This document shows positions 5,541 through 45,520 of a stretch of 64,000 bases of DNA, piece by piece. The first letter of the stretch is position 1; each line of letters begins with the position of its first letter. The stretch is from positions 1,240,001 to 1,304,000 of the forward strand of contig NZ_CP016448.1 of NCBI RefSeq assembly GCF_001713355.1, in the 5' to 3' direction. The position numbers and the translations under genes were made by a program. The notes beneath the pieces were generated by a model that did not search any database, was not told the DNA's origin, and worked only from the letters and a program-made list of their open reading frames with translations. The DNA comes from Methyloversatilis sp. RAC08 (GTDB taxonomy: Bacteria > Pseudomonadota > Gammaproteobacteria > Burkholderiales > Rhodocyclaceae).

Positions 5541-5726
5541 TGCTTGTGGGAGCGCTGCTTTTTGGGGCACTTGCCTGTTTGGAGCACTTGCCTGTGGGAG
5601 CACTTGCCTGTGGGAGCACTTGCCTGTGGGAGCACTTGCCTGTGGGAGCGGCGGCCTCGCCGCGATACGCACGCTGCACAACGACCATCGCGGCACTGAT
5701 CGCGGCGAGGCCGCCGCTCCCACAGG
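5541..5726. repeat. REP pair with a 16-bp tandem head array
   Basis: Four exact head copies (TGTGGGAG at 5593, 5609, 5625, 5641, period 16 bp, spacer CACTTGCC) and a degenerate one at 5576 lead into a complete REP (palindromic core GCGGCGGCCTCGCCGC). About 40 bases later comes its inverted partner ending CTCCCACAGG at 5726. The pair resembles the REP/BIME elements mobilised by RAYT transposases. The rest of the gap to 5945 shows no gene. Confidence 0.85.
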
Positions 5727-12378: not shown

Positions 12379-12872
12379 CCTGTGGGGTGTCCCTGTGGGG
12401 TGTCCCTGTGGGGTGTCCCTGTGGGGTGTCCCTGTGGGGTGTCCCTGTGGGGTGTCCCTGTGGGGTGTCCCTGTGGGGTGTCCCTGTGGGAGCGGCGGCC
12501 TCGCCGCGATACGCGGTCTGCACAATGATGGTCACGGCACTATCGCGGCGAGGCCGCCGCTCCCACAGGCCGATATGCACTTTGCACGACGATGGCCACG
12601 GCACGATCGCGGCGAGGCCGCCGCTCCCACAGGTTGATAATGCACTTTGCACGACGATGGTCACGGCACGATCGCGGCGAGGCCGCCGCTCCCACAGGTC
12701 GATATGCACTTTGCACGACGATGGTCACGGCACGATCGCGGCGAGGCTGCCGCTCCCACAGGTCGATACGCACTTTGCACGACGATGGTCACGGCACGAT
12801 CGCGGCGAGGCCGCCGCTCCCACAGGCCGCCGCTCCCACAGGTGGCGCTCACACCATTGCCGTTCCCACAGG
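12379..12872. repeat. Large REP array: 13-bp and 64-bp tandem repeats
   Basis: Nine head copies (TGTGGG at 12381 to 12485, period 13 bp, spacer GTCCC) run into a complete REP. Its inverted partner is then repeated: CTCCCACAGG recurs at 12561, 12625, 12690, 12754 and 12818 with period 64-65 bp. Each unit carries a near-identical linker (GCACTTTGCACGACGATGG) and an inverted REP core. One core has a single change (GGCTGCC). Further head remnants follow at 12830-12870. Long open frames across it are periodic peptides and not genes. Confidence 0.9.
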
Positions 12873-15890: not shown

Positions 15891-15910
15891 CTGTGGGAGC
15901 TTCCACAATC

Positions 15911-15955
15911 ACCGCTCCACCGCTCGCGCCTTGCAGGCGCGAGCGGTGGAGCGGT
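15911..15955 (-). terminator. 20-bp hairpin after katE
   Basis: A perfect inverted repeat (15912-15930 with 15936-15954, extendable by one pair into the loop) lies just after the katE stop codon and beside a REP head. No T-run follows, so it may act as a REP-like mRNA stabiliser or a factor-dependent stop. Confidence 0.55.
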
Positions 15956-15958
15956 GCG

Positions 15959-21730: not shown

Positions 21731-22073
21731 GCTGAGACCTGTGGGAGCTGAGACCTGTGGGAGCTGAGACCTGTGGGAGCTGAGACCTGTGGGAGCTGAG
21801 ACCTGTGGGAGCTGAGACCTGTGGGAGCTGAGACCTGTGGGAGCTGAGACCTGTGGGAGCTGAGACCTGTGGGAGCTGAGACCTGTGGGAGCTGAGACCT
21901 GTGGGAGCTGAGACCTGTGGGAGCTGAGACCTGTGGGAGCGGCGGCCTCGCCGCGATCGGCGCGATGATCGCTGATCAACGCGCCGATCGCGGCGAGGCC
22001 GCCGCTCCCACAAAACCTGCGCCGCTCCCACAAAACCTGCGCCGCTCCCACAAAACCTGCGCCGCTCCCGCAA
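21731..22073. repeat. REP pair with 16-bp head array and 20-bp tail array
   Basis: Thirteen head copies (TGTGGGAG recurring every 16 bp from 21740 to 21932, spacer CTGAGACC) lead into a full REP (GCGGCGGCCTCGCCGCGAT). A short palindromic linker and an inverted REP ending CTCCCACA follow. The far end is amplified in turn: GCCGCTCCCACAAAACCTGC occurs three times (20-bp period) plus a partial copy. The array copies are essentially identical. Confidence 0.92.
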
Positions 22074-45329: not shown

Positions 45330-45520
45330 CGACTGTGGGAGCGGTGTCGACTGTGGGAGCGGCGGCCTCGCCGCGATACGCACGTTGATCATCGATCATC
45401 GCTGCGCTGATCGCGGCGAGGGCGGAGCGGGGGTTTCGGCGAGCATTGCTCGCCGCCCGCAGAGCCGGCCGGCCATGCAGGGCCGGCAGTGGATCGCCGC
45501 TCCCACAAAACCACCGCTGC
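45330..45520. repeat. REP pair interrupted by a second palindromic element
   Basis: Two head copies (GTCGACTGTGGGAGCGG, 18-bp period) lead into a full REP core. The inverted partner starts as GATCGCGGCGAG (to 45420) and is interrupted by about 75 bases containing the palindromes GGCGAGCATTGCTCGCC and GCCGGCCGGCCATGCAG. It then resumes as GCCGCTCCCACA (from 45496), with a further degenerate head after that. Confidence 0.8.

Follow-up and report, generated by a model that had tools for sequence, protein, structure and literature searches.

The closest described systems are the REPINs of Pseudomonas fluorescens SBW25 (Bertels and Rainey 2011, PMC3116915), which, like the elements analysed here, form inverted REP hairpins, are linked to a RAYT and occur in tandem clusters that include flanking DNA, an arrangement of whole REPs known from several accounts (PMC3116915; PMC3733652; PMC2613905). 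The repeats of SBW25 consist of whole REPs or REPINs (GI-GIII, 72 and 112 bp apart; PMC3116915), whereas in the arrays described below it is mostly 6-9 nt of the REP head and a short spacer that are repeated, at many REPINs and on a side that follows replication. Near 2 Mb every GI-GIII array runs forward, and near 4 Mb every one runs in reverse (PMC3116915), a split that would fit the same replication rule, although the section of the source that reports it offers no such explanation. In Stenotrophomonas maltophilia, the SMAG arrays that serve for MLVA typing (Roscetto 2008, PMC2613905) are likewise REP-linked, contain flanking DNA and vary in copy number; they differ in that the unit contains the whole SMAG, and the cited passages describe no polarity. 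IS200/IS605 peel-and-paste transposition (PMC5371812) is similar in its Y1/HuH family, its single-stranded mechanism and its replication-tied orientation, but the passages concerned describe no array formation. Lastly, polymerases slip in vitro on a template carrying a hairpin and short direct repeats (PMC4134008), both of which are present here; that work used archaeal polymerases in vitro, while the outcome proposed here is genomic, the growth of an array outside the hairpin. REPINs, RAYTs and whole-REP tandem clusters are thus known; the literature searched yielded no account of arrays of REP heads alone or of a replication-linked array side.

The window, a 64-kb stretch corresponding to positions 1,240,001-1,304,000 of the source genome (G000; a single contig of 3,937,190 bp, or 3.94 Mb), contains 11 REP cores, and its arrays were read directly and by TRF. 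An earlier note on this DNA had described four tandem arrays of a REP head with a locus-specific spacer, each running into a full REP. These arrays are real, direct reading and TRF being in agreement, with small corrections to coordinates and copies (Table 1): the four, nine and thirteen copies counted at 5593, 12381 and 21740 are three exact units and a degenerate one, eight units plus the REP, and twelve units plus the REP, respectively, while the two copies of the 18-bp locus near 45333 hold when the REP head is counted. This last unit scores 18 by the measure described below, under the array threshold of 20, and no microhomology was seen by eye at its junction. Adjacency to the 5' boundary of a full REP was borne out both in the genome sample and in the window, where each of the four head arrays stops exactly at TGTGGGAGCGGCGGCC, the start of a REP. 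CTGTGGGAG occurs 28 times in the window versus 0.42 expected, and the heads of array 2 read GTGGGG, not GTGGGAG. The other side of two of these REPINs, absent from the earlier note, carries 20-bp and 64/65-bp units. The former have 13 nt in common with the REP and, with a score of 50, form one of the two origin-side arrays in our sample that reach 40; the latter are the only repeats in the window whose unit contains a whole REP, as in a tandem REP cluster or BIME. Whole-REP clusters occur beyond the window too, for example at G000:C1:406903-407562, where four tandem REPINs lie at a spacing of ~190 bp, flanking DNA included. At 15891-15957 of the window a lone REP head, CTGTGGGAGCTTCCACA, stands without a REP beside a GC-rich inverted repeat that looks terminator-like by eye.

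Table 1. Positions of arrays, REPINs and associated elements; coordinates are those of the window, except in the last two rows, which use genome coordinates.
Feature	Position	Strand	Description
Array 1, type A	5577-5640	+	16-bp unit TGTGGGAGCACTTGCC; three exact copies and a degenerate first copy; terminus (left) side
REPIN after array 1	5641-5724		REP + arm 5641-5666, inverted arm 5699-5724
Array 2, type A	12381-12484	+	eight 13-bp units TGTGGGGTGTCCC; nine heads counting the REP; terminus side
REPIN after array 2	12485-12567		29-bp hairpin predicted on the - strand
Origin-side half-REPIN repeats	12519-12826	-	64/65-bp unit (middle + REP arm), ~5 copies
Array 3, type A	21740-21931	+	twelve 16-bp units TGTGGGAGCTGAGACC; terminus side; REP at 21932
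REPIN after array 3	21932-22012		
Origin-side array	22000-22073	-	20-bp unit TGTGGGAGCGGCGCAGGTTT (- strand), ~3.5 copies
Single 18-bp unit before REP	45334-45351	+	two copies counting the REP head
REP arm	45352-45377	+	inverted partner broken by ~75 bp of other sequence (45421-45495), by eye
RAYT gene	G000 415,096-415,536		between two REPINs, same REPs flanking
IS110-family element sites	G000:C1:413426-414709 (L038), 458791-460077, 626432-627733, 3155268-3156542		

A genome-wide search with the REP core returned 237 matches (116 forward, 121 reverse) and none to a reversed control. For analysis of individual loci we combined the window, 60 stretches of 20 kb at even spacing and the surroundings of listed REPs into a sample of 1,412,002 bases. 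It contains 218 REP arms, of which 211 differ by no more than 3 mismatches from the 25-mer behind the 237 matches. Most REPs form inverted doublets ~83 bp long (REPINs): pairing gave 101 candidates, 98 after removal of shared arms, and left 19 single arms. The middle of the REPIN measures 31-32 bp in 91 of the 98, and only 7 lie inside a predicted gene according to home-made gene calls, so that REPINs are mostly intergenic. The inner REP hairpin, by eye, is GCGGCG-GCCT-CGCCGC and starts at nt 8. One element, the REPIN at 12485, was folded as single-stranded DNA and is predicted to form a 29-bp stem (143 nt, -50.3 kcal/mol, z -7.3) matched in stability by 0 of 200 shuffles. The earlier note had called for a search for a RAYT gene, and one is present, scoring 136.3 bits against NF047646 (an NCBIfam equivalog with a cut-off of 80) and above the cut-off for PF01797; a second, distant match to the RAYT protein lies at G000:C1:1322170-1322616 (35% identity). 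REP heads also harbour an IS110-family element of ~1.25 kb (PF01548 and PF02371 above cut-off), and at 3675122 the end of this element comes after a REP-head array. A second REP-like core, TGTGGGAGCGACGGCCCCGTCGCGAT, occurs at G000:C1:94248, 458743, 460077-460478 and 2026538-2026668, partly in a tandem cluster beside the main family, with an array score of at most 8 in all 8 arms found.

Each arm was given an array score, that of the best tandem period ending in the REP head; shuffled flanks (20 per arm) reached a maximum of 11. A score of 20 was taken as the threshold for an array, and arrays scoring at least 30 with at most 11 nt in common with the REP were termed strong type A. Repeats of this kind are nearly confined to REPs, as TRF applied to the 60 even stretches found 19 arrays with a period of 10-30 and at least 3.5 copies, of which 16 adjoin a REP, one (3530001) adjoins a REP just beyond the slice, one (3675122) ends in an IS-cut REP head and one (1009383) is unrelated. 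Scoring of the 98 two-arm REPINs revealed a pronounced polarity. At a score of at least 40, the arm facing the terminus carries an array in 37 cases and the arm facing the origin in 2 (binomial p 6e-11), both of the latter on REPINs that also have a terminus-side array, and at 60 or above the counts are 26 and 0 (binomial p 3e-8); the bias is weaker at low thresholds (40 versus 8 at 30 or above, 44 versus 20 at 20 or above). By chromosome half, again at 40 or above, arrays occupy the left arm of 22 of 56 REPINs and one right arm in the left half, and the right arm of 15 of 42 and one left arm in the right half. The window lies on the left replichore and its four head arrays are on the left side, as the rule predicts. 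Strong type A arrays change side between 1,685,813 and 2,039,026, an interval that contains dnaA (2,004,541-2,004,744), and with the origin as a free parameter and the terminus set opposite to it, any origin position between 1.90 and 2.02 Mb accommodates 38 of the 39. To the left of dnaA the GC skew is mostly negative, from ~2.4 Mb on it is mostly positive, and 730 of 1188 predicted genes are co-directional with replication under this assignment. Placement of the terminus relied solely on GC skew and on the reversal of polarity seen between 3.862 and 0.089 Mb; two pattern searches for a dif site with a gammaproteobacterial consensus found none.

Other causes of the polarity were considered. 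Our first guess, that arrays face the origin, was dropped once dnaA had been located at 2.0 Mb. Transcription direction was rejected because the 37 strong arrays obey the replication rule whatever the gene context, convergent, divergent or either tandem one (two had no neighbour within 1.5 kb and two were inside predicted genes). The orientation of the REPIN, which can be read from its asymmetric middle in 93 of the 98, is itself replichore-biased (38 forward and 13 reverse on the left versus 15 and 27 on the right, p 0.0003), but of the 8 strong type A arrays on minority-orientation REPINs, 7 still face the terminus and 1 faces the origin. Array strength does not correlate with distance from the origin (Spearman 0.08, p 0.42). 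Arrays are associated with intact hairpins, occurring on 30 of 60 REPINs with two perfect arms versus 7 of the 38 others (p 0.0025).

The two sides also differ in what is copied. In arrays scoring at least 20, units on terminus arms usually include 6 or 9 nt of the REP (at most 11 nt in 41 of 46), while on origin arms the copied stretch is 12-17 nt in 15 of 21, most commonly 17, which corresponds to the first half of the inner hairpin plus its loop (Fisher 1.3e-6 for the split of unit types by side). Terminus-side breakpoints thus fall mostly at REP nt 6-9, the foot of the hairpin, and origin-side breakpoints at 12-17, its apex. The earlier proposal that duplication must have begun at the insertion boundary has to be divided accordingly: the unit starts at the TGTGGG head, and its second breakpoint lies inside the REP and depends on the side. 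Likewise, spacers do mostly differ between loci, the 39 strong type A arrays representing 33 distinct units, but TGTGGGAGCTTGC recurs at 4 loci and TGTGGGAGCTGTTCC at three. The outer flanks of these identical units differ, so a seed may be carried along with its element or may form more than once. Greater divergence of distal than of proximal units is seen in only 3 of 33 arrays, and the reverse in none. The terminus arms at G000:C1:1678659, 1685813 and 2496120 carry very short units (7, 7 and 5/10 bp; TGTGGGC, TGGGC) that resemble known G-rich heptamer arrays.

Comparison with relatives showed that the REPIN persists while the array changes. Over hits of at least 800 bp, the flanks of REPINs in G012, a second species of the same genus, are 87-96% identical to those in G000, and the sites are therefore orthologous. 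Of 27 matched terminus arms, 8 carry an array in neither genome, 10 in G000 only, 4 in G012 only and the rest in both: 2 differ in period, 2 agree in period but differ in copy number, and 1 is identical, so that 18 of the 19 informative arms differ; among matched origin arms, 14 of 25 are without an array. Tandem copy number varies here between species, the variation that defines a VNTR or minisatellite being one between strains. Because the score thresholds and the 11/12-nt split of unit types were chosen after seeing G000, G012 served as an out-of-sample check. The split recurred: among arrays scoring at least 20, terminus arms have 7 whose units include at most 11 nt of the REP and 3 whose units include at least 12, and origin arms have 1 and 7, respectively (p 0.025, leaving out one double count and two REPIN duplications of 59 bp; array L250 unmapped). 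Side alone is weak in this genome: with one double count removed, a score of at least 40 is reached by 8 arrays on terminus arms and 4 on origin arms, all 4 of the latter being of the second unit kind; the G012 stretches were picked non-randomly by a two-head pattern, which favours neither side. Several loci with multiple units in G000 have one unit in a relative (495,922 in G009; 2,601,891 and 1,041,392 in G012), and at 1,987,756 the single unit of G012 is shared with G000, which has two more beside the REP. From these aligned states, seeds are probably older than expansions, and in at least one case the extra units lie on the REP-proximal side.

In G005, of the same genus and with a related REP core (85 matches, some in inverted pairs), none of 59 arms at 30 loci has an array, indicating that a hairpin alone is not sufficient. 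The pattern of two TGTGGGAG heads, the second followed by CGG, was found in 8 of 61 genomes (G000 included), all within this genus, of which 13 members were searched; five of the 8 have 1-4 matches. Arrays headed by GGGAGC in G001, G002, G005 and G011 amounted to 4-9 matches each, about the level of the reversed control (2-8). Stretches from G003 and G009 contained one array scoring at least 20 (L280, on the terminus side by its map), and 80 loci near RAYTs of other organisms gave 10 candidate TRF arrays, a few of them with REP-like units (L141, L156, L197).

We consider it probable that these are short satellites grown by replication at RAYT-associated REPINs, in which the lagging-strand polymerase stalls at the hairpin and slips back by one unit. 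From the polarity, the breakpoint, the adjacency to the REP and the association with intact arms we infer such a stall and realignment. During passage of the fork, the single-stranded lagging template could fold the REPIN into a long hairpin, which the nascent lagging strand would meet from the terminus side only. Having copied the flank and the head, the nascent strand would stall at the foot of the stem, and its 3' end could then re-pair one unit back, adding a unit beside the REP. The terminus-side runs suggest that copying errors at the hairpin generate repeats in a direction-dependent manner. The seed for expansion by slippage would be two heads with one spacer, the first duplication being a separate and less understood step, and origin-side units that reach the hairpin apex would reflect a different event, either leading-strand entry or processing by RAYT. 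REP-stalled replication slippage had been named as a candidate in the earlier note and it stands; the terminus-side polarity, which that note lacked, speaks for a stall in lagging-strand synthesis rather than for plain cutting of the boundary by RAYT. Several observations count against slippage: the bias weakens at lower thresholds and in G012, a related REP goes without arrays in the G005 arms tested, units mostly end in the C of the CT step that RAYTs cut, the 18-bp duplication at 45334 lacks junction microhomology by eye, and distal units are seldom the more diverged. Nor would purely local slippage be expected to yield one unit at 4 loci.

An alternative that we regard as unlikely, though it retains some force, is that RAYT makes the arrays by cutting single-stranded DNA between C and T at the head, the segment between cut sites being copied through further rounds of cutting, through strand transfer or through priming by the released 3' end. 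The genome does encode a RAYT, and E. coli TnpA-REP cuts between C and T 5' or 3' of the REP (PMC8266576). With each recurring unit counted a single time, TGTGGG is preceded by a C at the unit end in 30 of 32 strong terminus arrays, versus 34 of 57 array-free terminus arms (p 0.0005), but the same CT step precedes the head in 66 of 84 array-free origin arms. The replichore bias of REPIN orientation also recalls IS200/IS605 elements (PMC5371812), and G005, in which none of the 59 arms has an array, has a more distant RAYT (57%). The main difficulty is one of strand: on the lagging template the terminus-side arm is the REP complement, and the E. coli and S. maltophilia enzymes of RAYT type process the REP strand but not its complement (PMC8266576). 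Because the REP strand of the lagging template is the origin-side arm, cutting by RAYT suits the weak origin-side units better than the strong terminus arrays. Also against it are the change of arrays at REPINs that stay in place and the very short units of three arrays, 7 bp in two and 10 bp in one. Taken together, the repeated units at several loci, the array-free G005 and the CT enrichment keep RAYT in play, above all for seeding.

Slippage on the leading strand, in which the newly made REPIN would fold on leaving its terminus end and pull the 3' end back into the array, predicts the same side and could draw on the stable hairpin. We think it improbable, as breakpoints cluster at the hairpin foot (nt 6-9), as expected for a block met before the stem, and as nascent leading DNA is in general less exposed. 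Still less credible is selection on strand or function, whereby arrays would arise on both sides but persist only where the leading template is the G-rich strand, or would be kept as protein sites or G-quadruplexes. In its favour, side is completely confounded with strand, and Xanthomonas and Nostoc have G-rich heptamer arrays (PMC4692102); against it, there are origin-side units that are by eye at least as G-rich, and the 39 arrays comprise 33 different units. Ordinary tandem-repeat variation independent of REPs would account for the differences in presence and copy number between species, but it is contradicted by the side bias and the near-exclusive REP adjacency in the evenly spaced sample and is very improbable.

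A broader view, whose chances we judge to be evenly balanced, is that REPINs act as replication-polarised satellite factories: each hairpin would stall lagging-strand synthesis and seed and expand a minisatellite of its own on the side towards the terminus, and the other arm would gather a different unit, broken at the apex, so that array side and breakpoint would record the strand that met the hairpin first. The tens of natural hairpins in this one genome would then provide a read-out of where, and on which strand, replication fails, and the side of an array could mark fork direction in complete genomes. If this is true, the birth and directional expansion of tandem repeats, a long-standing question, would become testable in a bacterium, and REPINs would affect their host beyond transposition.
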